Source of the DNA: Spirochaetales bacterium
Lineage (GTDB): Bacteria; Spirochaetota; Spirochaetia; UBA9216
Direction of reading: 5' to 3'
Assembly (NCBI GenBank): GCA_016839055.1
Contig: JAEKNX010000001.1
Span: 62,001-126,000 of the forward strand
DNA length: 64,000 nucleotides
The notes under the pieces are model-generated. The model did not search any database and was not told the origin of the DNA. It worked only from the letters and a program-made list of their open reading frames with translations. Shown here piece by piece: positions 17,060-37,092 of the stretch (its first letter is position 1; each line of letters opens with the position of its first letter). The translations under genes and the position numbers were made by a program.

Positions 17060-17096
17060 TATAATAGATTTCAGGTGGTCTGGTGTTCAGAACACC
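17060..17096 (+). promoter_or_regulatory. Promoter and GntR-type operator of the 20-kb catabolic operon
   Basis: TATAAT at 17060-17065 with a weak -35 (CTTTAT at 17037). Downstream, at about +10 to +24, is a perfect palindrome GGTGTTC-A-GAACACC (17082-17096), flanked by CAGGTGGTC. The GT..AC core and position fit a FadR/GntR-type repressor site; the operon encodes one such regulator (28666-29361). Confidence 0.7.
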
Positions 17097-17115
17097 TGAT
17101 GACAGGAGGTGTTCA

Positions 17116-17877
17116 TTGGAAAACATTCTGCGCAAAAAATTAAAAAAAGATAATGCTGTAATAGGTACAATGATTCAGGAGCTTCGATCTCCTGCTGTGC
17201 CCATCCTGCTGGCGAATGCCGGTTATGATTTTATTTTCATTGACATGGAACATGGTGCTCACAACATGGAAACAGTCTCTGATCTGATAAAGGTCTCAAG
17301 AAGTATTGGCCTTTGTCCGCTCGTCAGGGTTCCTGATCTTCAATATCATCTTATCTCTAGATGTCTCGATGCCGGAGCTCAGGGGTTTATGGTCCCCAGA
17401 ATTGAGACAAGAGAGCAGGCACAGAAGGCGGTATCCTACTCTAAGTATCCTCCGATGGGGGAGAGAGGCTGCTCAATAAATAAGGGGCATAATGATTACA
17501 GGGGCGGCGATCTGCTAGAGTTCATCAGCAGTGCGAATAAAGAAAATTTCGTAATTCTCCAGATAGAACGAAGGGCGGCCATCGAAGATCTAGACAACAT
17601 CCTCTCGGTTGAAGGGATTGACGGTGCAATCCTGGGCCCAAATGATTTAGCCGCTTCCTATGGCGTTAAAAACGATCTGAACAGTCAGTTCATGAATGAT
17701 ATTTTTCAGAAAGTGATGGACGTCGGAAAGAAATACGGTGTTTATACGGGAATGCATATCGGAAATCTCGCGAAACTGATCGAATGGAAAAACAAAGGTA
17801 TGCAGCTGATTACCTATAATACTGATCTTGGATTTCTCGGCGCTGGAGCTGCTGCGGGCATAAAAGAATTAAAATAA
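17116..17877 (+). CDS. HpcH/HpaI-family aldolase
   Basis: A 253-residue class II (metal-dependent) aldolase of the phosphoenolpyruvate/pyruvate TIM-barrel family. Motifs are FIDMEHGAHN, PLVRVPD, GAQGFMVPRIET, YPPMGERG and GAILGPNDLAASYG, matching 2-keto-3-deoxy-glucarate or 4-hydroxy-2-oxoheptanedioate aldolases, which cleave 2-keto-4-hydroxy acids to pyruvate plus an aldehyde. The start is TTG 17116, six bases after a strong AGGAGG (17104-17109); a farther GTG would put the operator inside the coding region. It is the first gene of the long operon. Confidence 0.88.
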   Translation: MENILRKKLKKDNAVIGTMIQELRSPAVPILLANAGYDFIFIDMEHGAHNMETVSDLIKVSRSIGLCPLVRVPDLQYHLISRCLDAGAQGFMVPRIETREQAQKAVSYSKYPPMGERGCSINKGHNDYRGGDLLEFISSANKENFVILQIERRAAIEDLDNILSVEGIDGAILGPNDLAASYGVKNDLNSQFMNDIFQKVMDVGKKYGVYTGMHIGNLAKLIEWKNKGMQLITYNTDLGFLGAGAAAGIKELK

Positions 17878-17888
17878 CAGGATTTAGT

Positions 17889-19253
17889 ATGGAAAAGAAA
17901 CTAATTATCAATGGTCTTGTCGTTACAAAAAATAAAAACAACCAAATGATCAGTAAGGGATTTATACAGGTCGATGATAATCTGATAAAAAAAATTGGAA
18001 CAATGAAAGAACTTGATATGACAAGTCTTTCCCCGGATGTAGAGATAATAGACGCCTCGGGAATGATTATAGCTCCGGGTTTTATCAGCCTTCACAGTCA
18101 TCTCTATAGCGCGGTTGTCAGAAGTATTCCCTTCTCCGGATTTGATAATGCTGATTTTTCTTTTATTTCATGGATGGAAAGGTTCTGGTATCCGATGCTG
18201 GAGGACAAGGTCACCCGGAATCAGATGTATATAGGATCCCTTGCCAACATGCTTGGAAATATCCGAAGCGGAATTACGACGACAACCGATACGGCCGAAG
18301 GCTCATACGCCCTGCCCGGCGCTATGGATTTTGTCCTTAAGGCGGCGCAGGAGTCGGGGATGCGCTGCGTATTATCATTTGAAACAACCGGCCGAATAAG
18401 CCCCGAAAATCAGGAAATGGGCTTTCAGGAAAATTTAAATCTGATAAAAAATATTAACCCCTTAAATGACAGAATATCCGCCCGGATTGGCATTCATACA
18501 ACATTCTCCTGTCCGACCGAGCTGCTCATTGAAGCACGGAGACAGGCGGACAATCTGGGCTGCGGAATAATGATGCATATGGCTGACGACAGGTGGCATA
18601 ATTTTGATTCCACACGCCAATACGGAAAGAGACCCACCCGATATCTTGAAGACATAGGTTTTCTGGGGCCTGATCTGCTGCTTTTCCACTGCTCCTATAT
18701 GGACGTCCTTCGTGATCCTGAGATTTTTAAGGCGCATGATGTAAAAATTGCGCATAACGCCGAGTCTAATGCCATATTCGGATTCTGGCCTAATATGATT
18801 CCCTTTATCAAGGAAGGGGTCTGTGTAGGCCTGGGTACTGACGGGCAGACTCATTCGATGTTTGAAATCATGAGGACGACCCAGATGATTCACAGAATCA
18901 GGTATGAAGATCTTGAACTCCTGCCGGACAGTGATGTGCTTTCGATGGCTACAAACAGGGGAGCCGAAGCGCTTCTTATGCCCGATGAGATCGGCTCACT
19001 CGAAATTGGGAAAAAGGCGGATCTGATTCTGCTGAAAGACCGAAGCGCGGTACCAATTTTCGAAGAAAACGTTGAGAATTATATTGTCAGTACCTGTGAA
19101 CGCTCTGATGTTGATACAGTGATAATTGACGGTAAGGTTATTCTGAAAGGCGGAGACTTCGTGACACTTGATGAGAACGCAATCTATGAAGATTCCAGGA
19201 AAGAAGCTCTGGACCTATGGAAGAGAAATAAATGGCCGACACCGCGGGAATGA
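17889..19253 (+). CDS. TRZ/ATZ-family amidohydrolase (SsnA/deaminase-like), first copy
   Basis: A 454-residue metal-dependent hydrolase with the standard split: N-terminal beta-sandwich, (beta/alpha)8 barrel with LHSHLYSAV (metal HxH, ~75), MMHMADD, LLFHCSYM and the catalytic GLGTDGQTHSMFE, then a C-terminal beta strand set with IGKKADLILL. Relatives deaminate guanine, S-adenosylhomocysteine, 8-oxoguanine or triazines; E. coli SsnA of the purine cluster is in this group. It begins 12 bases after the aldolase gene and precedes the BMP transporter genes. The substrate cannot be read from sequence; deamination or hydrolysis of a ring nitrogen is the inference. Confidence 0.85.
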   Translation: MEKKLIINGLVVTKNKNNQMISKGFIQVDDNLIKKIGTMKELDMTSLSPDVEIIDASGMIIAPGFISLHSHLYSAVVRSIPFSGFDNADFSFISWMERFWYPMLEDKVTRNQMYIGSLANMLGNIRSGITTTTDTAEGSYALPGAMDFVLKAAQESGMRCVLSFETTGRISPENQEMGFQENLNLIKNINPLNDRISARIGIHTTFSCPTELLIEARRQADNLGCGIMMHMADDRWHNFDSTRQYGKRPTRYLEDIGFLGPDLLLFHCSYMDVLRDPEIFKAHDVKIAHNAESNAIFGFWPNMIPFIKEGVCVGLGTDGQTHSMFEIMRTTQMIHRIRYEDLELLPDSDVLSMATNRGAEALLMPDEIGSLEIGKKADLILLKDRSAVPIFEENVENYIVSTCERSDVDTVIIDGKVILKGGDFVTLDENAIYEDSRKEALDLWKRNKWPTPRE

Positions 19254-19310
19254 TAAAAACTCTTTTACCGCTGAGAGATTAAAAATAGCGGAATTAATTG
19301 GAGGGACAAA

Positions 19311-20333
19311 ATGAAAAAGGTTTTAAAAACAACTGGAATGGTCTTTCTAATCTTGTTTATTGCAGCAAATATCTGGGCAGGAGGAGAGCAGGAAGTAGAA
19401 AAGGTCGAAAAAAAACTTGTGATGGCTATGGTCACGAACCAGTCGGGACTGGGGGACCAGTCATTCAATGATGCCGCATGGGAGGGATTGGCCCAGGCTG
19501 TAGAAAAATACGGAATAGAACGGAAAGTTCTCGAGGCCCGGGAACAGGCCCAATATGTTCCGAACCTGAGTACCCTTGCCGAGCAGAATGCTGCATTGAT
19601 CGTAGGTGTAGGCTTTATGATTAAAGACGCAGTGAAAGAGACGGCGGAGATGTTTCCCAATACAAATTTTGCAATCGTCGACGGCGGGGTTGATCTGCCG
19701 AATGTAGCGAGTATTCATTTTAAAGAAAACGAAGGAGCCTTTCTCGTCGGAGCGATAGCTGCCAAGGTTTCGAAGACTGGAAAAATCGGTTATGTCGGAG
19801 GAATGTCTACTCCGGTAACAAACAGAATGGAAGCCGGCTACCGAGCAGGGGCTATAACGGTTAATCCTGATATTGAGATATTTATTTCCTATGCGGGAAC
19901 CTTCGCCGATCCGGCCAAGGGTGAAGAGATGGCCGTCCCTCAGTATGATCAGGGCGCAGATGTTATTTTTCAGGTGGCGGGACAGACCGGACTAGGTGTT
20001 ATAAATGCCGCTAAGAAGAAGGGGAAATATGCCATAGGCATCGACCGTGATCAGAATTATTTGGCCCCGAAAAACGTTCTTTCATCGATGATAAAAAGAG
20101 TGGATATTGCAGTCAGCAATGCCTGCGGAATGGTTGTGAACGGTACATTCGAAGGAAAGCATTATTATTACGGTATCAAGGAAGGGGCAATAGATTTTGC
20201 AACAACTGGTAATCTCATACCCCCTGATGTTGTAAATTACGCCAACATGCTTAAAAAGAAGATCCTCAGCGGGGAAATAAATCCGCCCTCAACATATGAG
20301 GAACTAGATGCTTTTACTCCTCCGAAATTATAA
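19311..20333 (+). CDS. BMP/PnrA-family ABC transporter substrate-binding protein
   Basis: A 340-residue binding protein with a Sec signal peptide cleaved near NIWA-GG; unlike most of its family it shows no lipobox cysteine. The domain carries NQSGLGDQSFNDAAWEG, FAIVDGGVD, KENEGAFLVGAIAAKVSKTGKIGYVGG and GIDRDQN, typical of PnrA (TmpC) and BmpA, which bind purine nucleosides in Treponema and Borrelia. GGAGGGAC precedes the ATG. A strong hairpin follows it. Confidence 0.9.
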   Translation: MKKVLKTTGMVFLILFIAANIWAGGEQEVEKVEKKLVMAMVTNQSGLGDQSFNDAAWEGLAQAVEKYGIERKVLEAREQAQYVPNLSTLAEQNAALIVGVGFMIKDAVKETAEMFPNTNFAIVDGGVDLPNVASIHFKENEGAFLVGAIAAKVSKTGKIGYVGGMSTPVTNRMEAGYRAGAITVNPDIEIFISYAGTFADPAKGEEMAVPQYDQGADVIFQVAGQTGLGVINAAKKKGKYAIGIDRDQNYLAPKNVLSSMIKRVDIAVSNACGMVVNGTFEGKHYYYGIKEGAIDFATTGNLIPPDVVNYANMLKKKILSGEINPPSTYEELDAFTPPKL

Positions 20334-20341
20334 TTATTAAA

Positions 20342-20363
20342 TAGAGCCGAATCTTCGGCTCTA
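20342..20363 (+). terminator. Intra-operon hairpin after the BMP binding-protein gene
   Basis: TAGAGCCGA (20342-20350) and TCGGCTCTA (20355-20363) form a 9-bp stem with loop ATCT. There is no T-run after it (AATACC), so it more likely protects the 3' end of the binding-protein message than stops transcription. Confidence 0.65.
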
Positions 20364-20383
20364 AATACCTGAACGGGAATCAA

Positions 20384-21895
20384 ATGGCAGCAATAATTCG
20401 AATGGAGAACATTATAAAGACCTTCCCGGGGGTACTCGCCAACGATAAGGTTTCACTGGAAGTTGAAAAGGGTGAAATCCATTGTCTTCTGGGAGAAAAT
20501 GGAGCGGGAAAATCCACCCTGATGAATATTCTCTATGGTCTTACCTCCTGTGATTCGGGTGAGATTTACATTAAAGATCAGTTAGTTGAATTCTCCGGAC
20601 CGAGAGACGCTATTGCCAGCGGAATCGGCATGGTGCATCAGCACTTCATGCTGATTCCGGTCTTTACCGTGATGGAGAACTTGATTCTCGGTAATGAGCC
20701 TGTAAAGGGGCTGAAGATCGATAAAATCAAGTCTGAAAAAATACTGGCGGATATCTCCGGAAAATATGGAATGGAGATGAACCTTCACGCCTATGTAAAG
20801 GATATCTCGGTTGGGATGCAGCAGCGTGTTGAAATACTGAAGCTCCTGTACCGCGGCGCGGATATAATGATTTTTGATGAACCGACCGCAATATTAACAC
20901 CGCAGGAAATTCTGGAGCTCTATAAGGTTATGGAATCTCTGCGCCAGCGAGGAAAGACCATCATCTTTATCACTCATAAATTGAAAGAAGTAATGGAGAT
21001 CTCCGACAGGGTGACTGTACTGCGTGACGGACGGGTGATTAATAAAATAAAAACCGAATCGACGAATACCCGCGAACTTGCCAAAATGATGGTCGGACGG
21101 GAGGTCCTGTTCAGCACCCGGCGGCCCGAAAAGAGAGCCGGCGCAGAAGTTCTCCGGGTAGAAGACCTCTACGCAAAGGACAAGAGGGGGCAGAAAGGTC
21201 TGAAGGGCCTCTGTCTCAATGTTAAAGCGGGAGAGATTGTCGGGATAGCAGGAGTCGACGGTAACGGCCAGTCTGAGCTTGTAGAAGTATTAACCGGGCT
21301 TCGAAGAACTGACTCGGGAAGCATAAAAATAGAAGACAGAGAGATGGCCCACAGAAATGCGGGCAGGTTTCTCGCCGCAGGAACAGCACATATTCCCGAC
21401 GACAGACTTCTCCGGGGATTAATCCTGGATTTTCCCCTTTATGAAAATATGCTGCTGGGATTTCAGGATCAAAAACCCTTCACTAAGGGTATTTTTATAG
21501 ATTTCAACAAGGTCCGGCAATGGTCAAAGGGCCTTGTTGAGGCCTTCGATGTCAGGGTTCCAAATGTCAATGTTCAAGCCGGTTCTCTGTCAGGGGGGAA
21601 TCAGCAGAAGGCAGTACTGGCCAGGGAATTTGCCAGGGATCCGAAGCTTCTGATAGCATCCCAGCCGACGAGGGGGCTGGATGTCGGAGCTATAGAGTTT
21701 GTTCATGAGCGGATAATGCAGGCCCGGCAGAACGGCAAGGCCGTCCTCCTGGTTTCTCTGGATTTGAGTGAAATAATGAATTTAAGTGACAGAATACTGG
21801 TCATTTACGAGGGGAAAATAATTGCCGAGTTTATGGCAGATGAAGCGGCTGATACCGAAATAGGTTTTATGATGGCCGGCGGAGGAAAAAAGTGA
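20384..21895 (+). CDS. BMP-type nucleoside ABC transporter, ATP-binding protein
   Basis: A 503-residue double ATPase. The first domain has a full Walker A (GENGAGKSTL), signature (SVGMQQRVEILK) and Walker B (IMIFDEPTA). The second has the altered Walker A typical of this family (GVDGNGQSEL), signature LSGGNQQKAVLAR and IASQPTRGLDVGA. Known YufO/NupA/RnsB proteins have this layout. Its stop overlaps the next start in GTGA. Confidence 0.92.
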   Translation: MAAIIRMENIIKTFPGVLANDKVSLEVEKGEIHCLLGENGAGKSTLMNILYGLTSCDSGEIYIKDQLVEFSGPRDAIASGIGMVHQHFMLIPVFTVMENLILGNEPVKGLKIDKIKSEKILADISGKYGMEMNLHAYVKDISVGMQQRVEILKLLYRGADIMIFDEPTAILTPQEILELYKVMESLRQRGKTIIFITHKLKEVMEISDRVTVLRDGRVINKIKTESTNTRELAKMMVGREVLFSTRRPEKRAGAEVLRVEDLYAKDKRGQKGLKGLCLNVKAGEIVGIAGVDGNGQSELVEVLTGLRRTDSGSIKIEDREMAHRNAGRFLAAGTAHIPDDRLLRGLILDFPLYENMLLGFQDQKPFTKGIFIDFNKVRQWSKGLVEAFDVRVPNVNVQAGSLSGGNQQKAVLAREFARDPKLLIASQPTRGLDVGAIEFVHERIMQARQNGKAVLLVSLDLSEIMNLSDRILVIYEGKIIAEFMADEAADTEIGFMMAGGGKK

Positions 21896-22983
21896 AGAAG
21901 AATCCTCTGTTTGATATATTTATTGGCAATGATTCAGTATTTTCCTTTGTGAAGGCAATACTCGCCGTGTTTTTCGCCCTGATCATTGTTTATTTCATTC
22001 TTCTGCTTACCGGTTATAGTCCTTTTCCTGTTTACGGGGCCCTTCTTAAAGGTGCGTTCGGCAGCAGGAGATGTTTTGGCGAATGTCTTGTGTCGACAAC
22101 ACCGCTGCTGTTCAGCGGATTGGGTTTTGCAATCGCATACCGCTGCGGATTATTTAATATCGGCCTTGAAGGGCAGATAACTGTCGGCGGAATTGCAGCG
22201 GCCTTTATCGGATATATTTTTCCCGAGATGAATCCTGTAATTCACGTAAGCGCCTGCATCGCCGCAGGCTTTCTTGCCGGAGCACTCTGGGGGTTTATTC
22301 CCGGTTACCTGAAGGCACGTTTCGGGATCCATGAGGTAATAAGCGTAATAATGCTCAATCATATTGCCTTCAAAATTGCGGCATACCTTGTCTCCATGCA
22401 GGGGCCGATGAAGGACCGTCTGGATGATATGCCTGCATCGCCTTTTATCAGGGACAGCGCTAAAATAGTTCGATTAGTAAATGGTTCGAGGGTACACTGG
22501 GGAATAATACTGGCGGTAATTACCGCCTTTATAATCTGGGTGCTGCTGTTTCGGACAAGGCTTGGTTTCCGAATAAGGGCGGTAGGCAAGAATAAATACG
22601 CAGCCGAGACCGCTGGAATAAATGTCAAACGCCATATAATCCTGACCCTCTCGATAAGCGGAGCACTCGGCGGCCTTGCAGGAGCTGTTGAGATACTCGG
22701 TGTTCATTATCGCCTGTTTGCTGCCTTCTCCCCTGGCTATGGTTTCGATGCTATCGCCGTAGCGCTGCTGGGGATGGTCCATCCCATAGGAATAATTGCA
22801 TCCGCCTTTCTCTTCGGTATACTCAGAAGCGGGTCGGTCTTCATGCAGGCAATGTATGGAGTCAATAAGGATATGGTATCGGTAATTACCGCGATTATTG
22901 TGCTGTTTATGGGCATGAGCGCTCCCATTGGCATCATGATTAAAGACAGGTTTAAGAGGAAAAGTCATGGAACTTCTGTTTAA
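21892..22983 (+). CDS. BMP-type nucleoside ABC transporter permease 1
   Basis: A 363-residue permease with ~9 predicted helices and the family signatures FNIGLEGQITVGGIAAAF, SVIMLNHIAF and GFRIRAVGKNKYAAETAGINV. It corresponds to YufP/NupB. The GTG start overlaps the ATPase stop (GTGA) and its own end overlaps the second permease by 17 bases, so the three are coupled. Confidence 0.9.
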   Translation: MKKNPLFDIFIGNDSVFSFVKAILAVFFALIIVYFILLLTGYSPFPVYGALLKGAFGSRRCFGECLVSTTPLLFSGLGFAIAYRCGLFNIGLEGQITVGGIAAAFIGYIFPEMNPVIHVSACIAAGFLAGALWGFIPGYLKARFGIHEVISVIMLNHIAFKIAAYLVSMQGPMKDRLDDMPASPFIRDSAKIVRLVNGSRVHWGIILAVITAFIIWVLLFRTRLGFRIRAVGKNKYAAETAGINVKRHIILTLSISGALGGLAGAVEILGVHYRLFAAFSPGYGFDAIAVALLGMVHPIGIIASAFLFGILRSGSVFMQAMYGVNKDMVSVITAIIVLFMGMSAPIGIMIKDRFKRKSHGTSV

Positions 22984-23902
22984 ATTATTCAGCATGGCGG
23001 TATTTGCTTCAACTCTGAGGATAGCCACTCCGCTGATCCTCGCGTCCCTTGGCGGCTGCATGTCGGAGCGCTCGGGAGTAATCAACATCGGGCTGGAGGG
23101 CATGATGCTGATGGGAGCATTTACCGCGGTAGTCGGATCTTTTTATCTAGGGCCCTGGCCCGGTCTGATTCTCGGAATACTTGCAGGCGGGATGATGGGA
23201 CTTCTTCATGCCTTCATGAGCGTAACTCTCGGCGCGAATCAGGTAATAAGCTCAACTGCTATCAACATCATGGCCGTTGGGCTGCCGAATATTCTGATTC
23301 CTGTAATTTGGCCTGGGCATTACGGGATATCTCCTACGGTCGGAGTTATAAAGGATATAAATATTCCCTTCATTTCCTCAATTCCTGTTATTGGAAAAGT
23401 ATTAGGGCATCAGAATCCGATAGTCTACGTTGCGCTCATCCTGGTTCCGGTAATTTCATATCTGCTCTTTAAAACCCGGATAGGACTCAGGATACGCTCG
23501 GTTGGGGAACATCCCCGGGCCGCGGATACCCTTGGAATCAATGTTTATAAAATGCGTTATATCGCAGTTACCATGAGCGGCCTTCTTGCAGGCCTGGGCG
23601 GAGCCTTTCTCTCGATATGCTATCAGTCTCAATTTTCGTCGGTTATGACCGCGGGAAGGGGGTTTATAGGCCTTGCTGCAATGATCTTCGGGCGCTGGAC
23701 TCCCAAGGGCGCCATGCTTGCCTGTCTTCTGTTTGGATTCGCGGATGCTTTTCAAGCCGGGGCTCAATCGGCGGGAGTTCCCATCCCTCCTGAAATTCTT
23801 CTTGCCTTCCCCTATGTCCTGACCCTTGTGGCATTGGTAGGACTTCTTGGCAAGACTGCCGTCAGCCCTGCTGCAAACGGAAAACCATATCTGAAAGGAT
23901 GA
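22967..23902 (+). CDS. BMP-type nucleoside ABC transporter permease 2
   Basis: A 311-residue permease, about eight helices, with SERSGVINIGLEGMMLMGAF, GANQVISSTAINIMAVGLPN and RIRSVGEHPRAADTLGINV. It corresponds to YufQ/NupC. The four transporter genes are all present and intact, so import of a nucleoside or a related base is expected. The second amidohydrolase gene begins 3 bases after its stop. Confidence 0.9.
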   Translation: MELLFKLFSMAVFASTLRIATPLILASLGGCMSERSGVINIGLEGMMLMGAFTAVVGSFYLGPWPGLILGILAGGMMGLLHAFMSVTLGANQVISSTAINIMAVGLPNILIPVIWPGHYGISPTVGVIKDINIPFISSIPVIGKVLGHQNPIVYVALILVPVISYLLFKTRIGLRIRSVGEHPRAADTLGINVYKMRYIAVTMSGLLAGLGGAFLSICYQSQFSSVMTAGRGFIGLAAMIFGRWTPKGAMLACLLFGFADAFQAGAQSAGVPIPPEILLAFPYVLTLVALVGLLGKTAVSPAANGKPYLKG

Positions 23903-23905
23903 GTT

Positions 23906-25333
23906 ATGTACGATATCTTGATTGAGAACTGCAGCATCATAAGTATGAACAAGAGAAATGACATCTTCGATCGCTGTTCGATTGGAATAACCGGAGGCAA
24001 AATTGAGTCTATTGGCCCTGATCTTAAGGGCGGAGCCTCGAAGGTAATAAAGGGAAAAGGCACCTATGTGATGCCGGGACTCATCAATTGTCATACCCAT
24101 GTGTATCAGTCTCTAATCGAGGGCGTCGGCTATGATATGCATTTCAACCCCTGGAATATCAGGTATCTGATACCCATCGTATCGAAGATGAAGCCGCATC
24201 ACGCCCGGATTAGCGGTGAACTCGCTGCCATCGAGATGATAAAAAGTGGAACGACTACTTTCTCCGATCACTGGTACCTCCATACTGATTTCAATAATAT
24301 CGAAGAGGAAGCCGAGGCGTTTAATAGGTCGGGACTGCGCAGCCACCTGGTATTCGGATTCCTGAATGAGAGCTTTGCCGGACGAAAGAACGCGAACGGA
24401 AGCGGAGCAGAAGTTTTAAAGGAAGAATCGGAGCTGCTCGAGAGGGCGGAAGATTTTGTCTCCCGTCGGCATGGGCAAAATCTGATTACTGCCGGCCTTG
24501 GTCCCGGCTCGACCGAGGATGTTGGAACTGAGCTGTTCCGGAAGATCATAAGCCTCGCACGGAAACTTGACGTGAGTCTGGTTACTCACATTGCCGGATG
24601 GGTTGAGATAGTCTCGCGGTCAATTGAAAAATACGGAATGAGGGACCTCGAATATGCGCATTCACTAGGATTCACCGGTGATAAATCGATAGCAATTCAT
24701 GGTGTTTGGCTCTCGGAGGATGAGATTGAAATAGCTGCCGTGACCGGTACGGGTATTGCCCATAATCCTGTAGCCAATATGAACTTGGGTTATGGAATTG
24801 CGCCTATCTGCCGCATGAGAAAGGCAGGAATAAAGGTCGGTCTCGGAACTGACGGGGCAGCGAGCTACACCTATGACATGTTTGAAATAGGCAAGGCCGC
24901 GGCTATGCTGCAGAAGGTTCATAAGCTCGATGCCGAAGCACTGACTGCCGAAGATGTGCTGAGTATGCTGACAAGAGAAGGGGCATCCTTATTGGGTATT
25001 GATGAGATAACCGGCTCGATAGAAGTAGGAAAACAGGCTGATTTAATAATGATTAATGCGGACAGTCCCAATATCCTCGGCGGAGGCAGACCCGCACCGC
25101 TAATAGCTTACGGAGCACGAAGTTCGGATGTCATCAATTCGATAATTGGCGGCAGGCTTGTCATGGAAGACCGAAAAGTCCTGACCCTCGATGAGAAATC
25201 TGTCCTCTCTGATGCTAATGATGCCCGAACTGAATTACTCGAGCTCGGCGGTTCTGCGGTGAAGGAGCTGCTCGATGCCCCCTGGCCCGGGCGCGGTGCG
25301 TCATGGAGGAGGCTCGATGGCCAGATTTCATAA
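23906..25333 (+). CDS. TRZ/ATZ-family amidohydrolase, second copy
   Basis: A 475-residue homologue of the 17889-19253 gene with the complete metal site: INCHTHVYQSLIEG (HxH), VTHIAGW, IHGVWLSEDE, HNPVANMNLGYG and GLGTDGAASYTYDMFE. The clear HNPVANMNLG motif and serine/threonine-rich metal Asp motif place it nearer to the S-adenosylhomocysteine/guanine/8-oxoguanine deaminase type than the first copy, whose equivalent region (AHNAESNAIFG) is diverged. Two members in one operon suggest two successive hydrolytic steps. The end overlaps the start of the aldehyde oxidoreductase gene by 17 bases. Confidence 0.87.
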   Translation: MYDILIENCSIISMNKRNDIFDRCSIGITGGKIESIGPDLKGGASKVIKGKGTYVMPGLINCHTHVYQSLIEGVGYDMHFNPWNIRYLIPIVSKMKPHHARISGELAAIEMIKSGTTTFSDHWYLHTDFNNIEEEAEAFNRSGLRSHLVFGFLNESFAGRKNANGSGAEVLKEESELLERAEDFVSRRHGQNLITAGLGPGSTEDVGTELFRKIISLARKLDVSLVTHIAGWVEIVSRSIEKYGMRDLEYAHSLGFTGDKSIAIHGVWLSEDEIEIAAVTGTGIAHNPVANMNLGYGIAPICRMRKAGIKVGLGTDGAASYTYDMFEIGKAAAMLQKVHKLDAEALTAEDVLSMLTREGASLLGIDEITGSIEVGKQADLIMINADSPNILGGGRPAPLIAYGARSSDVINSIIGGRLVMEDRKVLTLDEKSVLSDANDARTELLELGGSAVKELLDAPWPGRGASWRRLDGQIS

Positions 25334-27474: not shown

Positions 27475-27563
27475 TAAAAAGTCATCCGTGCCTTTTTATC
27501 ATTTAGAAGTATTAAAAGCGTTGCTTTTTAATACTTCATCTCGTGCACCGCCATCCGTGGCGG
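27471..27563 (+). repeat. Three consecutive hairpins inside the operon
   Basis: Hairpin 1: ATGATAAAAAG (27471-27481) / CTTTTTATCAT (27492-27502), overlapping the ferredoxin stop. Hairpin 2: GAAGTATTAAAA (27506-27517) / TTTTAATACTTC (27526-27537). Hairpin 3: CCGCC (27548-27552) / GGCGG (27559-27563). Loops 1 and 3 share the octamer CATCCGTG (27483-27490 and 27552-27559). They fill the only gap over 60 bases in this operon. Likely roles are mRNA processing or stabilisation, or a small repeat element. Confidence 0.75.
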
Positions 27564-27583
27564 AATTCTTTATAGGAGATGGA

Positions 27584-28665: not shown

Positions 28666-29361
28666 ATGATAGATAAAATTGAAACATTGACTGTCGCGGA
28701 CGCGATAGTCGAAAAACTGCTCGGCTATATTTCTTCCGGCAAACTGACATGGGGACAGCAGCTTCCCTCTCAACGAGAGCTGGCAAAGATGCTCAATGTC
28801 GGGGTTTCCTCGGTGAGAGAATCTCTTCAGGTTCTTCAGGCAATGGGTTTTGCTGAAGTCAGGCGGGGACAGGGCACTTATATTACCGAGAATTCATCCA
28901 TTCCGTTAACTAAGAGCATTGAAAGATCTATGTATCAGGACACAAGCGTCCGGGATTTAATGGAACTGCGCGAGGTTCTCGACACGGGCCTGGCCGTACT
29001 TGCGGCAAAGAAAGCGGGTAAGGAAGATATTGAGAAGATGGATGCCTGCGTATCTGATCTGGAAGGCAGCAGGGGCATTGATGATGATAAAACGGCGAAG
29101 AGTGATCTGGCATTTCATATTGCATTGGCCGAGAGCGTGAAGAATCCCCTTCTTGTTCAGTTCTCGTCGGCCATGAGGACTTCCTACGCGAAGTTTTTAG
29201 GTGAGCTGCCTCACACCGAGAAGGGAACCGAACTTCACAGAGAAGTTTTAGATGCAATAAGGGCGCAGGATCCGCTTGGTGCGAGAGACGCGATGATTGA
29301 TTTACTCAAGCATACGAGAGAAATATACCTTAAAAAAACATTTCAACAGGGGGAAGAATGA
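28666..29361 (+). CDS. FadR-subfamily GntR transcriptional regulator
   Basis: A 231-residue regulator: winged HTH at residues ~8-75 (LPSQRELAKMLNVGVSSVRESLQVL, then GFAEVRRGQGTYI) and a C-terminal all-helical FCD ligand domain with metal-binding His (FHIALAESVKNPLL, HREVLDAIRAQD). FCD regulators usually sense carboxylic acids. It lies in the middle of the operon and is the obvious candidate for the GGTGTTCAGAACACC site at the operon promoter, making it autoregulatory. Its stop overlaps the next start (ATGA). Confidence 0.9.
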   Translation: MIDKIETLTVADAIVEKLLGYISSGKLTWGQQLPSQRELAKMLNVGVSSVRESLQVLQAMGFAEVRRGQGTYITENSSIPLTKSIERSMYQDTSVRDLMELREVLDTGLAVLAAKKAGKEDIEKMDACVSDLEGSRGIDDDKTAKSDLAFHIALAESVKNPLLVQFSSAMRTSYAKFLGELPHTEKGTELHREVLDAIRAQDPLGARDAMIDLLKHTREIYLKKTFQQGEE

Positions 29362-30329
29362 ATAAAGTACTTGTTGACAGGCCTCTGCATCCGGATGCGC
29401 ACAGTCTTCTTTCGGCTAATGCGGAAGTTCTCGAAGTTTATGATGATGACAGAACAAGGATTGAGGCTGCGCTTAGGGTTGCCGACGGGGTAATCTGTTC
29501 AGCTGCGCTGAAGATGTTTGAGAAGGAAATCTCAATCGCCGGAAGGCTGAAGGTCATCGGGCGGCCCGGGGTCGGCTATGACAGTGTCGATGTCGCCGCC
29601 TCGAGCAGGCAGGGCATCCCCCTGGTTTATACTCCTGACGGGCCGACTGAATCAGTGGCGGAGCATGTAATTATGATGATGCTCATGGCGGCAAAACGAA
29701 TCAATACAGTTCAGAAGGCATTTCGGGAAGATGGAGACTTTGGTATAAGAACCAGGGTTACAGGCACCGAACTGCTGGGCAAGACTCTCGGCCTGATAGG
29801 TTTTGGAAGAATCGGGCGGCGGACGGCTGAAATAGCATCAAGAGGACTCGGTATGAAAATCCTTGTCCATGATCCTTTTATCGGCTCCTTCGATGATGAG
29901 GCGATTACTGCCTCGGAGACTCTCGAACAACTGCTCAGGATCTCCGATATTATTTCAGTTCATATTCCATTTTCTGAAGAAAACAGAAATCTAATTGGTT
30001 TTAAAGAGTTTTCAATGATGAAACAAGAGGCAGTCTTCATCAATACCGCCAGGGGAGGCGTTGTCGATGAGGAGGCGCTTATCGATGCTCTCCAGACAGG
30101 GAAAATTGCCTCTGCCGGTCTGGATGTTTACCAGAAGGAGCCGCCGGATAAGGACAATCTTCTTCTGAAGCTGGAAAATGTGATAGCAACACCTCATCTA
30201 AGCAGTTTTACCGACGACGGGAAAAGAAAGATGGGAATGATGGTCGTCGAGGGGGTACTTGATGTTCTCTCGGGGAAGAAACCGCAGTTTATTGTAAATC
30301 CGGAAGTCTGGGAAAGACGGAGACGATGA
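29358..30329 (+). CDS. D-2-hydroxyacid dehydrogenase (SerA-like)
   Basis: A 323-residue NAD-dependent dehydrogenase. The Rossmann motif is GLIGFGRIGRR (~150), and the catalytic triad Arg (NTARGGVVDE), Glu (YQKEPP) and His (ATPHLSSFT) is complete. No ACT domain, so it is the short type. Possible substrates are 3-phosphoglycerate, hydroxypyruvate, glyoxylate or a longer 2-keto acid; an FCD-controlled operon with an HpcH aldolase favours a 2-keto or 2-hydroxy acid intermediate. It is joined to both neighbours by ATGA overlaps. Confidence 0.87.
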   Translation: MNKVLVDRPLHPDAHSLLSANAEVLEVYDDDRTRIEAALRVADGVICSAALKMFEKEISIAGRLKVIGRPGVGYDSVDVAASSRQGIPLVYTPDGPTESVAEHVIMMMLMAAKRINTVQKAFREDGDFGIRTRVTGTELLGKTLGLIGFGRIGRRTAEIASRGLGMKILVHDPFIGSFDDEAITASETLEQLLRISDIISVHIPFSEENRNLIGFKEFSMMKQEAVFINTARGGVVDEEALIDALQTGKIASAGLDVYQKEPPDKDNLLLKLENVIATPHLSSFTDDGKRKMGMMVVEGVLDVLSGKKPQFIVNPEVWERRRR

Positions 30330-31480
30330 GTCCGGTCGAAGAGGTAAAAAAACTCATTTCAATAAACTCAGTAACCGGCTCTGAAAAGGTCTTAGGCGTA
30401 TATCTCGAAGAAAGATTCAGAAAGATGGGCTGTGAAACGCGTCTGTTTGAAGCCGATGAAAACAGATTTAATGTATATGCGGAAATCAAGGGACGGAGTT
30501 TAGATATTCCGGGATTATTATTTCACGGGCATCTTGATACCGTTGCCGCCCATGGAATGGAATCTCCATTTATTCCAATTGAGAAAGACGGGAAACTTTA
30601 TGGACGTGGCTCGGTGGATCAGAAGGGCGGAATAGCGGCTGTGATCTCGGCATTTGAAGAAACATTGAGGACAGGGAAGATTCCGGGTAAAACTATTGCA
30701 TTTATCGGGGTTATTGATGAGGAATCAGAGCATCGCGGCAGCATGGCCTTAGAGAACATGGGAATAAAGGCCGAATTTGCTGTTGTAACTGAGCCCACGG
30801 GACTCCGGCTGGGTATCGGCTGTAAGGGGACTATGCCGATCCGCATAAACGTGACCGGACAGGCAGCCCACGGATGCCGCCCATGGCTCGGCCGGAATGC
30901 GGTTGTGGCCGGAATGGATATAACGCAAATGCTAATGAAAGAAGAATTGCCGGTTTTCGAGGTGGAGGGGCTGGGCAGGCTGCAGGGATCTCTTAATCTC
31001 GGGAAAATTGACGGAGGCAGGGCCTATAACATCGTGGCCGACAGATGCAGCATCTGGTTCGATAGAAGGCTTGTGCCCGGTGAGAGTCAGCTTGCTGTGC
31101 TGAAAAGAGTCAAGGCACTGGTTGCCGAGTATTCGGCTCAAAACGGAATATTAGCAGAGGCGGAAATTGCCCGGCCGGATTGGAACTGGGAACCTATAAA
31201 GGCCAGAGGGCTGCTTCCTGCACTCACTGATGTAAGTTCGGCTGAGGTTGACGAGGTGAAAAAGGCTCATAAGATGGAAATCGGCAGCGGACCCGAGCTG
31301 TTTTTTACGGACGGCTATCAGGAAATGGATTTTCTCATTAATGATCTCGGAATTAATTCTGTACAGTACGGCCCCGGTGATTCCAGCCTCTGTCATACTG
31401 ATTCTGAGAATCTTGATTTAGAACAGCTTGAACTCTGCAGCAGGGTTTACCTGAATATGATCAGGCTGCTCTGCGGATGA
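30326..31480 (+). CDS. M20-family metallohydrolase (ArgE/DapE-like)
   Basis: A 384-residue di-zinc hydrolase with FHGHLDTV (metal His, Asp), GRGSVDQKGG (bridging Asp), IDEESEHRGS (catalytic Glu pair), VTEPTG and a C-terminal CHTDSE in the place of the last metal His. The family removes acyl or carbamoyl groups from amino acids; YgeY and allantoate or ureidoglycine hydrolases of purine pathways are relatives. In this operon an amide-hydrolysing step after ring opening is plausible. The start is coupled to the dehydrogenase stop (ATGA). Confidence 0.87.
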   Translation: MSPVEEVKKLISINSVTGSEKVLGVYLEERFRKMGCETRLFEADENRFNVYAEIKGRSLDIPGLLFHGHLDTVAAHGMESPFIPIEKDGKLYGRGSVDQKGGIAAVISAFEETLRTGKIPGKTIAFIGVIDEESEHRGSMALENMGIKAEFAVVTEPTGLRLGIGCKGTMPIRINVTGQAAHGCRPWLGRNAVVAGMDITQMLMKEELPVFEVEGLGRLQGSLNLGKIDGGRAYNIVADRCSIWFDRRLVPGESQLAVLKRVKALVAEYSAQNGILAEAEIARPDWNWEPIKARGLLPALTDVSSAEVDEVKKAHKMEIGSGPELFFTDGYQEMDFLINDLGINSVQYGPGDSSLCHTDSENLDLEQLELCSRVYLNMIRLLCG

Positions 31481-31502
31481 AAATGAATGGCCGGAGGCTA
31501 GG

Positions 31503-34292
31503 GTGGAAATAAATTTAACTGTAAATGGACAAAAATGTTTTTATGAATTTACCGATGAGAATGTCACCCTTCTTTTTTATCTTCGGACCGTGTTAAGGCT
31601 GACGGCAGCAAAAAACGGATGCGGTGAAGGCCATTGCGGAGCTTGTACGGTTATTTTAGATGGCAAGGCTGTACTCTCATGCATGAAAAAGATGAAGGAT
31701 CTTGACCTCTGCAGTGTTCTGACGCTCGAGGCTCTCTCTGATGGAGAAAATATTCATGCGCTGATTTTTTCATTTGCCAGAGAGGGAGCGGTTCAATGCG
31801 GTTTTTGCACGCCCGGCTTCATAATGTCCGCGAAAGCCCTGCTCGATCAAAACCCTGACCCGGATGAGAAAGCAATAAGGAAGGCCCTTGCGAAGAATAT
31901 CTGCAGGTGCACGGGCTATATAAAAATACTCAAGGCCGTCAGGGTTGCCGCCGGAATGATGCGGGAAGGACGAGTCTGGATCAACCGAAATGAGATCCTC
32001 CCTGACAGGCAGAGTTATGCAGGCGAATCTGTGGTTCGAATTGACAGTATTTCAAAGGCTGCAGGAGAGACAATCTTTGCCGATGATATGGTACTTGATG
32101 GAATGCTTCATGCAAAGGTGCTCAGAAGCAGCCTGATGCATGCGGATATTGTAAGTATTGATACCAGCGAGGCTGAAAGAAGCCCCGGCGTCATTAAAAT
32201 TCTTCTCTCGAAGGATATCCCGGGAGACAATAGTTTCGGTCCGATAAAAAAAGACCAGCAGGTTCTGGCAGATAAGAGGGTCAGATATTGCGGAGATGCC
32301 ATTGCTGCTGTCTTTGCCGAAACAGAAAAAGAAGCAGTTGATGCGCTCAGCAAGATTCATCTTGAATACAGGAAACTTCCTGTCTTGACGGGTTTTGATG
32401 AGGCACTCGCGGATGACGCAATGCAGCTGCACGAGGGGGAGAGCAACGTAATTGCCACGATGGTTGCCGGCAGAGGTAATCCTGATGCCGGTTTTTCTGC
32501 CTCTGATCTGGTAATTGAAGAAGAATATGATACCCAGTACATAGAACATGCATACCTCGAACCCGAATCCTGCATTGCGGAACTTAAAGGTTCGGGAGAA
32601 CTCATCATCCATGTTGCCAGCCAGGGGCCGCCGATGGATATTGGTGAGCTTTCTCCTGTTCTCGGTATTGCAGCGGAGCGAATCCACATTGCCGGAATGC
32701 CAATGGGCGGAGGTTTCGGAGGCAAGGAAGACATATCGGTGCAGATAATTGCCGCCCTAGGAGCTCTATTCAGCGGCAGACCTGTGAAGTACACATTCTC
32801 GAGGCGTGAATCCATTATAACAAGCGGAAAACGGAATGCGACCCATCTTCGATATAAAACCGGAGTCACAAAGGACGGCCTGCTTAAGGCCGTGAAGGTA
32901 GACATCTCTGCCAGGGGAGGTGCCTATGCATCGGTCGAAGAGGCTGTAATTCTTCGAAGTACAAGTTTTGCCGCCGGACCTTATACCGTTCCCGCCTCTG
33001 AAATTAAAGCTGTAGCTGTATATCAGAACCATGCTCCAACCTGTGCTATGAGGGGGTTCGGTAATCCCGTTGTAACATTTGGAGCTGAGACCAGCATGAA
33101 CAAGCTATCCGCGAAGCTGAAAATTGATCCCATTGAACTGCGGCTGCGCAATGTACTCGAGGTTGGGAAAACGACGATTACCGGTGACTGCCTGGAGACA
33201 AGTGTCGGCGTGAAAGAATGTCTGATAGCTATACAGAAGGAGCTGGCAGATTATAAAATGCCTGAGGATAGGGACGGTTGGGCAGTCGGAACAGGTATAG
33301 CTTGTTCATACAAGAATGTCGGACTGGGTATCGGAATGGATGACTCAGCGGGCGCCTCCGGGGAAATCTTAAATGACGGCAGACTTATGCTCAGGATAGG
33401 CAGTGTCGATATGGGACAGGGCGCTGATACGGCGATGGCTCAGATTCTCTCTGAAGCTCTCGGCTGGCCCTATAAGAGGATAACTGTACATTCGGCTGAC
33501 ACCAAACTCGACCCCTCCGCAGGTATGACCACGGCATCCCGGCAGACCTTTGTTTCCGGCAATGCAGTTCTTAAAATGGCGAAAAAACTAAATAAGCAAA
33601 TCAGCAACTTCCTGGCCGCAGAGGCAAATACGGAATATGAGGCTGTCAAGCTCATAGATAATTTCTTCTATGCTGATAACGGCAAGCGCAGAATAATGTC
33701 TCTGGATGACTTTATCAAATTGATGAATAAGAGGGACGTTAAAATAAAGGCTGAAGCCCGGTATTCGGCTCCTCCTACGCATTTCAACTTGATTGAGCCG
33801 AGAGAAGGATATCCTGCCCCTTCCGATGGACATCTTCATGCGGCCTACTGTTTTGCCGCTCAGGCAACTGTTCTTGAGGTCAATAAAAAAACCGGCCGCA
33901 TCAATATTCTCGATGTAATCATCGCCTCGGATGCAGGCAGAATAATAAACAAGGCCGCGGTCGAAGGCCAGATGGAAGGCGGAGTGGTCATGGGGCTCGG
34001 TTATGCTCTTTCGGAAGAGTACAAAGAAGAAAACGGGAAGGTGATTACCGATACCTACGGAAAACTCGGTGTCAGGAGGATTGGCCAGACTCCTCCAATT
34101 CGCTGCATCATCATTGAAAATACTCACCAGCACGGTCCCTTCGGCGCGAAAGGGATGGGTGAACTGCCCATATCTCTGAGCGCCCCGTCCGTTGTTCATG
34201 CCGTTTATAACGCAGTCGGTGTCTGGATTAACTCCCTGCCGGTTCTTCCCGGGAAGATCATCAGGGCCATGGAAGAAAAAAAGACGGAGTAA
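31503..34292 (+). CDS. Fused [2Fe-2S]/molybdopterin hydroxylase (xanthine dehydrogenase family, XdhD-like)
   Basis: A 929-residue single-chain enzyme. Residues 1-~155 are the FeS domain with two [2Fe-2S] clusters (Cys40, 45, 48, 60 and Cys99, 102, 134, 136; motifs GEGHCGAC, CGFCTPG, CRCTGY). The rest is the Mo domain: GETIFADDM, PMGGGFGGKED, CAMRGFGNP (the Arg that contacts purines in xanthine dehydrogenase), DMGQGADT and the catalytic base Glu in GAKGMGELP. There is no FAD domain or FAD subunit gene, as in E. coli XdhD. It hydroxylates an N-heterocycle carbon or an aldehyde. Starts at GTG 31503 behind GGAGG. Confidence 0.9.
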   Translation: MEINLTVNGQKCFYEFTDENVTLLFYLRTVLRLTAAKNGCGEGHCGACTVILDGKAVLSCMKKMKDLDLCSVLTLEALSDGENIHALIFSFAREGAVQCGFCTPGFIMSAKALLDQNPDPDEKAIRKALAKNICRCTGYIKILKAVRVAAGMMREGRVWINRNEILPDRQSYAGESVVRIDSISKAAGETIFADDMVLDGMLHAKVLRSSLMHADIVSIDTSEAERSPGVIKILLSKDIPGDNSFGPIKKDQQVLADKRVRYCGDAIAAVFAETEKEAVDALSKIHLEYRKLPVLTGFDEALADDAMQLHEGESNVIATMVAGRGNPDAGFSASDLVIEEEYDTQYIEHAYLEPESCIAELKGSGELIIHVASQGPPMDIGELSPVLGIAAERIHIAGMPMGGGFGGKEDISVQIIAALGALFSGRPVKYTFSRRESIITSGKRNATHLRYKTGVTKDGLLKAVKVDISARGGAYASVEEAVILRSTSFAAGPYTVPASEIKAVAVYQNHAPTCAMRGFGNPVVTFGAETSMNKLSAKLKIDPIELRLRNVLEVGKTTITGDCLETSVGVKECLIAIQKELADYKMPEDRDGWAVGTGIACSYKNVGLGIGMDDSAGASGEILNDGRLMLRIGSVDMGQGADTAMAQILSEALGWPYKRITVHSADTKLDPSAGMTTASRQTFVSGNAVLKMAKKLNKQISNFLAAEANTEYEAVKLIDNFFYADNGKRRIMSLDDFIKLMNKRDVKIKAEARYSAPPTHFNLIEPREGYPAPSDGHLHAAYCFAAQATVLEVNKKTGRINILDVIIASDAGRIINKAAVEGQMEGGVVMGLGYALSEEYKEENGKVITDTYGKLGVRRIGQTPPIRCIIIENTHQHGPFGAKGMGELPISLSAPSVVHAVYNAVGVWINSLPVLPGKIIRAMEEKKTE

Positions 34293-34296
34293 GTAT

Positions 34297-36294
34297 ATGG
34301 GAATTATTAATAAAGAAAATTATGAGAAAATATATACGACAGTAGAAATTGAGTATGCTATTCGGCTTATTAAGGCCAATATGCTGACATCCATTCATTG
34401 CGCCGGATCGGGACATTCAGGAGGTTCGCTGTCCGCGGCTGAGATAGTCGCCACCGCCTATCTGTCGGTGATGAGGCATAAACCCCATGACCCACAGTGG
34501 GCGGATCGCGACAGGTTCTATTTTTCCGCGGGTCATAAGGCTCCTCTCTGGTATTCGGTCCTAGGATTCTGTGGTTATTTTCCCGAAAAAGAAACGGCCC
34601 TGCTTCGGAAATTCGGCAGCAATTTTCAGGGCCATCCTGATAGGTCAAAACTGCCGGGAATAGAGATCTCCTGCGGTTCACTCGGGCAGGGCCTGAGTAT
34701 TGCGGTAGGGGACGCCATTAATGGTTCATTGAAAAAACAGAGCTACAGAGTTTTTTGTCTGATGGGTGACGGCGAACAGCAGGAAGGACAGATATGGGAG
34801 GCTGCGATGGCTGCTTCTCATTATAAGCTGGACAACCTCGTGGGAATAATAGATAAAAACCACCTTCAGATAGACGGAGCAGTCGATGAGGTGATGAATA
34901 TTGATCCGGTTGAAGACAAATATAAGGCCTTCGGCTGGAATGTCATTAAATGCGGTGGAAATTCCGTCGCCGAAATGGCAGCGGCATATAAAGGGGCGGA
35001 GGCCGTAAAGGGAAGGCCGACGGTAATAATTGCCGAGACAATTAAGGGAAACGGCGTCAGCTTCATGGAGAACCAGGCCTCTTGGCACGGGAAGGCCCCC
35101 GATCTTGGGCAGCTTGTATCGGCTCTGAAAGAATTAGGCGCCTCGGATTATGATTATAAGAGGATGATAGACTATGCTGAAGCCAATCAGAAAGGCATCG
35201 ATAATGGGATTGATGATGCTTTGCCGGTGTATTCGAAGGATTACTGGTGGAATCATGACAGGCTGATGAAAGTCGAAATGCGCCCCGGGCGTAAGGGCTT
35301 CGGGGACGCGCTAAAGGAGACTGAGAACGAATCAGTATGCGCCATAGGTTCTGATATTTCGAGTTCAATCTGCATCGATGAATTCTATAAGACCAGACCG
35401 GAGCGAAAGAACAGATGGTTCAATATGGGTATTGCAGAACAATCGGCAACCGCTCTTGCCGCGGGGCTTGCAAAAAACGGAATGATTCCATTTATCGGGA
35501 CCTATGGAGTCTTCTCAGCGGGGAGGGCGTTGGATCAGATAAGAACCACCCTCTGCTATGGAAACTTCAATGTAAACATCGCAGGGGCGCATGCCGGAAT
35601 ATCGGTAGGCCCCGACGGAGCCACGCATCAGGCCCTGGAGGATATCTATCAGATCGCGGGACTTCCCAATATGACAATGTTTTCCGGAATTGATGCCGAG
35701 GAAACGAGAAAGGCAACAGAGGCTTCGATTGGTATCTCCGGGCCGTGTTATATCCGATTTGCAAGGGAGGCGACACCTTTAGTAACAAGCCGTGAAACGC
35801 CTTTCGCGCCGGGACTTGCAACTATTATTAGATATAAAGGAAAGGAAGAGCCGCGGTTTGAAGATGCGTTTGAAACGGTCCTGTCAACGGAGGACGTGGG
35901 CGGACGTGAAGATCTATCCATTGTCGCGACCGGAACCGTCGTCACCGAAGCAATGCGGGCCGCCTGGATACTCAAGAATGAATATAATAAAGATGTCCGG
36001 ATAATTAACATCTCGACAATTAAACCCTTTGACAATGCAGCTGTCATTACAGCTGCCCTCGAGACCGGGGCGGTTCTCACCGTTGAAGAGCATCAGAGGG
36101 GGGCTCTGGGCGGCATTGTGTCATCGACAATTCTCTCATCAGGTAAATTATCAAAGGCAGGCCTGTGCTTTAAGATGATGGGAATAGAAGACAGGTTCGG
36201 AACATCCGGGCAGCCCTGGGAATTGATGAAATATTTTGAACTTACCGCGGAGTATATTGCGGGTGAATCAATGAAGCTCATAAAATCAAAATAG
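34297..36294 (+). CDS. tkt: Transketolase (full-length, single chain)
   Basis: A 665-residue thiamine-diphosphate enzyme. The N-terminal half has HCAGSGHSGGSLS, GSLGQGLSIAVG and the ThDP-Mg motif GDGEQQEGQIWEAA .. DKNHLQIDG. The middle pyrimidine domain has MGIAEQSATALAAGLA with the catalytic Glu and GAHAGISVGPDGATHQALED. The C-terminal domain has TVEEHQRGALGG. The start is ATG 34297, seven bases after GGAG, and 4 bases after the Mo-hydroxylase stop. It would move C2 units; in this operon it may feed ribose from nucleosides into central metabolism or act in a dihydroxyacetone-synthase-like reaction. Confidence 0.9.
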   Translation: MGIINKENYEKIYTTVEIEYAIRLIKANMLTSIHCAGSGHSGGSLSAAEIVATAYLSVMRHKPHDPQWADRDRFYFSAGHKAPLWYSVLGFCGYFPEKETALLRKFGSNFQGHPDRSKLPGIEISCGSLGQGLSIAVGDAINGSLKKQSYRVFCLMGDGEQQEGQIWEAAMAASHYKLDNLVGIIDKNHLQIDGAVDEVMNIDPVEDKYKAFGWNVIKCGGNSVAEMAAAYKGAEAVKGRPTVIIAETIKGNGVSFMENQASWHGKAPDLGQLVSALKELGASDYDYKRMIDYAEANQKGIDNGIDDALPVYSKDYWWNHDRLMKVEMRPGRKGFGDALKETENESVCAIGSDISSSICIDEFYKTRPERKNRWFNMGIAEQSATALAAGLAKNGMIPFIGTYGVFSAGRALDQIRTTLCYGNFNVNIAGAHAGISVGPDGATHQALEDIYQIAGLPNMTMFSGIDAEETRKATEASIGISGPCYIRFAREATPLVTSRETPFAPGLATIIRYKGKEEPRFEDAFETVLSTEDVGGREDLSIVATGTVVTEAMRAAWILKNEYNKDVRIINISTIKPFDNAAVITAALETGAVLTVEEHQRGALGGIVSSTILSSGKLSKAGLCFKMMGIEDRFGTSGQPWELMKYFELTAEYIAGESMKLIKSK

Positions 36295-36303
36295 GGGAGA
36301 TTT

Positions 36304-37092
36304 ATGGAAATAATCGATCTTGAAGAGCGGTATGAGCAGACTTACTGTAAATGTCTTGAGGATTGGTCCGACGAGTTTGACGATGCCGGTGATTTAAAGA
36401 AGAAATGGCTTGCCAGGAAAAAGACGCAGGGGCTTAGGGTGAAACTGGCGCGGAATGAGAAGGATGAGATTGTCGGAATGATTCACTATGTTCCGATAGA
36501 GCATTCCTGGGCAAAGGGAGTCAACCTTTACTTAATATATTGTGTCTGGGTTCACGGTTACAAGGAAGGCGTGGGTAATAATCAGGGCAGTGGTATTGGA
36601 ACACTGCTGCTTGAAGCCGCAGAGGCCGACTGTATGGAACTCGGCGCCGACGGGCTTGCGGCCTGGGGTGTAAGGCTGCCGTTTTTTCTGCGGTCGAAGT
36701 GGTATAAAAAGCGAGGTTACAAGGTAGCCGATACCGATGGCATGCTCGAGCTTGTCTGGAAGCCGTTTAAGGTAGATGTCATGCCGCCGGAGCTTATAAA
36801 GAGGAAGAAGAAACCTCCCGCGAAAAATGAGCTGCCGACGGTAACATGTTTTCGAAACGGCTGGTGCCCGGCTCAGAACATTAGCTGCGAGAGGGCAAAG
36901 AGGGCTGCTTCCGAGCTCGGAGACAGGGTCAGGTTTATTGAGTATGATACTGACAACCCCGAGGTTTTTGAAGAGTGGGGAATTGCCGATGCCGTCTTCA
37001 TCGAAGACAAATGTATCACAAACGGCCCGCCGCTGACCGATGCCAAGGTGAAAAAGCAGCTTGACAGGGCTCTTCGAAGACATAGACGGTAA
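36304..37092 (+). CDS. GNAT acetyltransferase with C-terminal YoaP/thioredoxin-like domain
   Basis: A 262-residue two-domain protein. Residues ~1-150 are a GNAT fold (VGMIHYVPIEHSW, then NNQGSGIGTLLLEAAE as the acetyl-CoA loop and KRGYKVAD near the end). After a basic linker, residues ~180-262 have RNGWCPAQNISCERAK and FIEYDTDNPEVFEEWGIADAVFIED, a thioredoxin-like fold as in YoaP. The cysteine pair is CPAQNISC rather than CxxC. It is the last gene of the operon. A role in modifying or reporting on a metabolite is guesswork. Confidence 0.75.
   Translation: MEIIDLEERYEQTYCKCLEDWSDEFDDAGDLKKKWLARKKTQGLRVKLARNEKDEIVGMIHYVPIEHSWAKGVNLYLIYCVWVHGYKEGVGNNQGSGIGTLLLEAAEADCMELGADGLAAWGVRLPFFLRSKWYKKRGYKVADTDGMLELVWKPFKVDVMPPELIKRKKKPPAKNELPTVTCFRNGWCPAQNISCERAKRAASELGDRVRFIEYDTDNPEVFEEWGIADAVFIEDKCITNGPPLTDAKVKKQLDRALRRHRR

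Follow-up and report, generated by a model that had tools for sequence, protein, structure and literature searches.

What is broken down by a run of closely spaced genes that resembles the purine cluster of Escherichia coli only in part? The question is raised by a 64,000-nucleotide stretch of the genome of a Spirochaetales bacterium (assembly GCA_016839055.1, contig JAEKNX010000001.1, positions 62,001 to 126,000; hereafter the window, and G000 for the whole genome), in which sixteen open reading frames of the + strand, labelled g1 to g16, fill positions 17083-37092. An initial annotation regarded them as a single-pathway, sixteen-gene operon, possibly for the catabolism of a nucleoside or an N-heterocycle. 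Here, g1 to g15 are found to be well supported as one co-inherited, co-regulated catabolic unit, on the grounds of synteny and of a unique shared candidate operator. With a probability of about one half, the unit is proposed to degrade a nucleoside-like N-heterocycle, distinct from uric acid, by an anaerobic reductive route that is driven by ferredoxin.

Gene order, distribution and the upstream palindrome

All sixteen reading frames were confirmed (16/16), and domain and profile searches returned the families that had been named for them. Intergenic distances lie between -17 and +57 bp, the sole exception being the g9-g10 gap of 109 bp, so that the description as tightly spaced, same-strand genes was borne out; the starts of g8, g10 and g15 were revised to 25317, 27584 and 34297. 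The first gene opens as a reading frame at 17083, its start being most likely a TTG at 17116 with the ribosome-binding site AGGAGGTG ahead of it.

The order and strand of g1 to g15 recur in a congener (G004, a contig of SZUA-414) and in Spirochaeta sp. UBA2779, and g1 to g14 follow each other in a second genus (G001, MAG2), where the transketolase gene g15 is not included. Further contigs from sediment metagenome-assembled genomes (MAGs) hold partial copies (L027, L029, L030 and L032), several of the relatives being MAG contigs broken off inside the cluster; in L027, L029 and a fifth such contig, L028, the transketolase gene has been relocated between g10 and g11. Protein identities among cluster copies are about 50-85%, and the proteins flanking the relatives' clusters do not match, save for one weak match of chemotaxis-receptor type. 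The combination is thus found in order and not scattered, and the conserved gene order, together with the unique palindrome described below, led to the rejection of a scattered-neighbour reading.

A perfect 15-bp palindrome, GGTGTTCAGAACACC (17082-17096), lies directly after the -10 box of a predicted promoter (TTTATA-16-TATAAT, 17038-17065, + strand) and shares bases with the GTG at which g1 is annotated to begin. The promoter is a promoter-like match and the consensus scan by itself is no better than chance; in relatives a -10-like box stands at the equivalent place ahead of the palindrome. With one mismatch allowed, GGTGTTCAGAACACC occurs at one site per genome in G000, G001 and G004, always upstream of g1, and at none in G003, a complete congener without the cluster, a backwards control pattern likewise giving none; with two mismatches, 0.08 matches are expected within the window. 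In UBA2779 a degenerate palindrome with the half-conserved core GTTCAGAACA follows the -10 box. A site that is unique and common to three genomes ahead of g1 supports a single regulated promoter, as had been supposed. The palindrome is likely the operator of the GntR/FCD-type regulator g11 (28666-29361, by domain search), the best candidate to bind it. Searches for additional regulon members by the palindrome found none in G000, G001 and G004; the genome hosting L028 has one site with one mismatch, on an unrelated contig (G400:C196).

Within the unit, a weak GC-rich terminator-like hairpin (27548-27563) falls in the g9-g10 gap (27474-27584). Internal terminator-like matches number 37 across the unit, versus 19.9 in shuffles, and this surplus makes attenuation inside the unit possible. 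The gap itself, 109 bp in the window, ranges from roughly -12 to +27 bp in those relatives for which it could be read.

The last gene, g16 (36304-37092), encodes a GNAT acetyltransferase according to the domain search and is not conserved in relatives; since none of their clusters with a readable end carries a GNAT gene, it is probably not a member of the operon, and the predicted sixteen-gene unit would then number fifteen.

Orthologs of the cluster were retrieved from eight contigs only in a scan of the whole genome collection, and in a phylum-wide draw of 393 Spirochaetota genomes a strict cut-off returned g10 orthologs from the window's own genome alone. The unit is thus rare and accessory, and it is absent from G003. 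Several carriers come from cold-seep or deep-sea sediment metagenomes, according to their record names; the Atribacterota label of L029 may reflect a binning error.

Comparison with reductive uric acid breakdown

The nearest known system is the reductive uric acid pathway, described as late as 2025, which comprises XdhD, YgfK or UacX, SsnA, HyuA, YgeW or UacY, YgeY and YgeX (PMC12507026) and corresponds in E. coli to ygeW-ygeX-ygeY-hyuA-ygfK-ssnA-xdhD. The operon holds counterparts to XdhD (g14), UacX (g10), SsnA (g2) and YgeY (g13), and the suspected kinship with the E. coli purine cluster is supported by its xanthine dehydrogenase (XDH)-, SsnA- and M20-type members. Two of its members recall the Clostridioides difficile variant, in which a PreA-like type of enzyme, UacX, replaces YgfK and the XDH-type enzyme has been described without a FAD subunit (PMC12507026): g10 is likewise of ferredoxin type, and g14 has no FAD subunit.

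Each of the shared members, however, stands outside the canonical clades or under the family cut-off, the trees used for clade placement being small. The TRZ/ATZ amidohydrolase g2 (17889-19253), whose HxxE motif reads HMAD, has SsnA as its best NCBIfam match, below the family cut-offs (284.5 versus 444 bits and 267.3 versus 455.5 bits), and falls in a clade apart from canonical SsnA. The M20 hydrolase g13 (30326-31480) is ArgE/DapE/YgeY-like and below all cut-offs in profile searches (160.8 versus 321 bits for YgeY). For g10 (27584-28654), a dihydroorotate dehydrogenase/dihydropyrimidine dehydrogenase (DHOD/DPD)-type FMN barrel with two 4Fe-4S motifs, the domain layout is of UacX type, yet the protein belongs to a separate clade and has a different motif, in a comparison made without C. 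difficile UacX itself. The xanthine-dehydrogenase-like g14 (31503-34292), a fusion of 2Fe-2S and Mo-binding parts according to domain search and alignment, groups with a fused Orenia enzyme whose gene adjoins canonical SsnA. Glu606 of E. coli XdhD is absent from the alignment of g14 and its orthologs, which separates them from the E. coli type only, because the Orenia enzyme also lacks it. A selenium-dependent hydroxylase was considered for g14 and rejected: YqeB is absent from G000 (and from 6/9 hosts), and the score lies under the TIGR03311 cut-off for selenium-dependent Mo hydroxylases (694.6 versus 830.45 bits).

Unlike the uric acid pathway, the operon is without YgeX, YgeW/UacY (none among the 16 genes in profile searches) and a uric acid permease, and it adds an aldehyde:ferredoxin oxidoreductase (AOR) with a polyferredoxin, a second TRZ/ATZ enzyme, a BMP nucleoside importer, an HpcH aldolase, a 2-hydroxyacid dehydrogenase and a transketolase. 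The initial annotation had argued a different chemistry from the lack of ygfK, hyuA, ygeX and ygeW. The part that concerns ygeX and ygeW stands; the ygfK part is unsound because the PreA-like gene is of the very type that replaces YgfK (UacX, PMC12507026). As to hyuA, no HyuA-type hydantoinase is found in the window's cluster, but this absence is local to the window's genome, since a dihydropyrimidinase/D-hydantoinase-like seventeenth gene ends the operon directly after the transketolase in G004 and UBA2779 (L011 12183-13589, - strand, and L025 18716-20146, + strand; 51% identical to each other). It has no close ortholog in G000, g16 occupying its place in the window.

The difference in substrate or chemistry is better supported by the company the operon keeps. 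In G000 itself, contig C26 bears a canonical-type cluster with XdhD (38% identity to E. coli), SsnA, a PreA-like protein, YgeY (48%), a pyridoxal phosphate (PLP) lyase and YgeW (62%); canonical uric acid clusters are also present in G004 (C259), G001 (C85) and the host of L028 (C138), while the L030 host encodes a YgeW above cut-off and the L032 host a YgeW fragment. As canonical clusters or YgeW coexist with the operon in the same genomes, its substrate is most likely not the one handled by those clusters, and the idea that it is a true replacement of the canonical pathway was rejected for the same reason. In the canonical clusters of G004 (L020/L024) and G000 (L088), a threonine-synthase-like PLP enzyme sits where YgeX is expected.

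The coexistence bears equally on a second reading, namely a divergent additional route for uric acid or a plain purine base (xanthine, hypoxanthine or 8-oxopurine), by a paralogous cluster whose chemistry would match that of the canonical one as far as diaminopropionate. Identical core enzyme types, the SsnA match of g2 and the grouping of g14 with the Orenia enzyme beside canonical SsnA speak for it. Such a route is nonetheless unlikely, for at least 5 hosts, G000 included, already have canonical clusters or YgeW, the operon is without a YgeX-type lyase or YgeW, g2 and g10 lie outside the canonical clades, g14 has no Glu606, and the importer is of nucleoside type and not a base permease.

A second, larger cluster of G000, on contig C10 (L021, 5951-15000; L018; L022, 1-1610), has in common with the operon a ferredoxin, an AOR, an XDH (three-part at C10), an SsnA-like and a PreA-like protein and a BMP importer, the recurrence of AOR and ferredoxin in such a setting giving weak support to the return of electrons proposed below. 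Only the C10 cluster has an ATP-type hydantoinase A/B, a carbamoyltransferase-like gene and glycine-reductase-like GrdB/E/A/CD with thioredoxin; it also holds an FCD regulator, an alcohol dehydrogenase, an FGGY sugar kinase and a DeoC-type aldolase, and its BMP protein, unlike g3, is devoid of nucleoside-binding motifs. From its gene content it looks like a different ring-breakdown route with a final step of glycine-reductase type.

Importer, substrate and electron flow

One clue to the substrate is the importer, made up of the lipoprotein g3 (19311-20333), the ABC ATPase g4 (20384-21895) and the permeases g5 (21892-22983) and g6 (22967-23902), the last three assigned by domain search. The substrate-binding g3 is a BMP/PnrA-type protein (PF02608), closest to Lbp and PnrA, in which alignment shows the aromatic sandwich and the ribose-binding Asp and Lys to be kept. 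The residues by which BMP proteins hold nucleosides (PMC13325309) are retained, namely the Phe that stacks, the DRDQ Asp and the MIKR Lys, and the supposed nucleoside-type importer is thereby supported in family and residues. Asp27 and Ser28 of PnrA contact the base (PMC7093131); this contact is not kept in g3 and four orthologs, which have Asn/Gln at the position (5/5 read). By these residues, g3 is a nucleoside-type binding scaffold with altered base-contact residues, and both purine and modified-pyrimidine nucleosides may be its substrates.

For the pyrimidine case, the reference is reductive degradation by PydA/PreA-PydB-PydC, which shares with the operon a PreA-like reductase, an M20 hydrolase and, in relatives, a dihydropyrimidinase-like enzyme, and from which the operon differs by its XDH-like and SsnA-like steps, AOR, aldolase and transketolase. 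A Pyd-like route for a modified pyrimidine nucleoside would proceed by phosphorolysis, deamination or dehydroxylation, PreA-type reduction, dihydropyrimidinase, M20 ureidopropionase and action of the AOR on the semialdehyde. The fold of g10 is nearest DPD (model mean pLDDT 72), the seventeenth gene would supply the dihydropyrimidinase, a pyrimidine-nucleoside phosphorylase gene lies 213 bp after g14 on the same strand in G001, and related BMP proteins bind thymidine (PMC13325309). This route is nevertheless doubtful: g10 has VDY in place of the catalytic NFSCP motif of PreA, the phosphorylase occurs in a single genome, and known Pyd pathways are without SsnA-like and XDH-like enzymes.

Turning to electron flow, g8 (25317-27092) has both AFOR domains (PF02730 and PF01314) and belongs to the true AOR branch, and is predicted to oxidise an aldehyde with ferredoxin. 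Its best match is 1aor, of the Pyrococcus AOR branch, that of BamB being far weaker; a BamB-type ring reductase was rejected on this account. It is followed by the polyferredoxin g9 (27085-27474, domain search). In the flavo-FeS protein g10, ferredoxin motifs are present and an NAD(P)H domain is missing. The cluster encodes no NAD(P)H-binding subunit for either g10 or g14, and a return of electrons from g8 and g9 to both is proposed.

The opposite direction is conceivable, with g14 hydroxylating the ring, and the AOR, ferredoxin and g10 disposing of electrons or acting as dehydrogenases, as in fermentations of nicotinate or xanthine type. Most characterised XDH-family enzymes do hydroxylate, and redox direction is not revealed by sequence. 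Such an oxidative flow appears quite improbable, as the g10 family acts reductively on rings and the nearest pathways reduce first and then open the ring hydrolytically (PMC12507026).

A proposed pathway and its significance

The proposed reductive breakdown would begin with import of a nucleoside by g3-g6. The Mo enzyme g14 would remove or add a ring oxygen, and g10 would dearomatise the ring with electrons from ferredoxin. Ring opening would fall to the metal amidohydrolases g2 and g7 (joined in some relatives by the dihydropyrimidinase-type enzyme), after which g13 may strip an N-carbamoyl-type group. By profile search and alignment g7 (23906-25333) is a TRZ/ATZ enzyme nearest to MTA/SAH and 8-oxoguanine deaminases; it retains the metal ligands and has lost the HxxE glutamate (HIAG). 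The AOR and polyferredoxin would oxidise an aldehyde derived from the pathway and pass low-potential electrons back to g10 and g14. A short carbon fragment, the sugar, or both might be disposed of by g1, g12 and g15, a set that a hydroxypyruvate-level C3 intermediate would suit, although this is a guess. The first of these is an HpcH/HpaI-type aldolase (17116-17877, PF03328) scoring under cut-off against the HpaI, GarL and RhmA models, with 3qz6, 1dxe and 2vws as nearest structures; by domain search, g12 (29358-30329) is a D-2-hydroxyacid dehydrogenase and g15 (34297-36294) a transketolase, an extra copy dedicated to the cluster. The whole would be controlled by g11 through the palindrome at 17082.

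A split transketolase directly followed by an AOR is seen at two more loci of G000 (L103, 6771-10374, on C16; L104, 6028-9764, on C10:268k). The pair at L104 is flanked by genes for a nucleoside hydrolase, for ComA-like and LarA-like proteins and for an FCD regulator. The adjacency was spotted post hoc, in a genome of nine AORs; a functional partnership of the two enzymes is possible in this lineage. No literature was found that links AOR to purine clusters or joins hydroxypyruvate, transketolase and purine.

Several points weigh against the proposed breakdown. Since G000 has nine AORs, the linkage of one of them to the cluster is weak taken alone, and the direction of g14 and of the AOR is not readable from sequence. 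The reaction of g7, without the deaminase glutamate, is a guess. The window's copy is missing the dihydropyrimidinase, and its operon contains no nucleoside-cleaving enzyme; the phosphorylase of G001 may be a chance neighbour. Lastly, the unit is rare (1/393 of the Spirochaetota genomes drawn).

A more specific version can be offered only very tentatively, and is probably wrong in some part: a separate pathway of nucleoside degradation, where the polyferredoxin and an AOR of tungsten type recycle electrons of the product aldehyde to two ring reductases, and which ends in a C3 (hydroxypyruvate-like) unit for transketolase, HpcH aldolase and 2-hydroxyacid dehydrogenase. If true, ring dearomatisation would be paid for inside the nucleoside pathway itself.

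To sum up, the operon, conserved in uncultured spirochaetes of sediments, looks like a previously undescribed system for nucleoside import and ring breakdown, operating alongside the reductive uric acid pathway and not instead of it. It suggests that the core of Mo enzyme, DPD-like reductase, amidohydrolase and M20 hydrolase is a general module re-used for other nucleosides, of which G000 carries three versions side by side. In cold-seep and deep-sea sediment, the nucleic acid of dead cells is a source of carbon and nitrogen.

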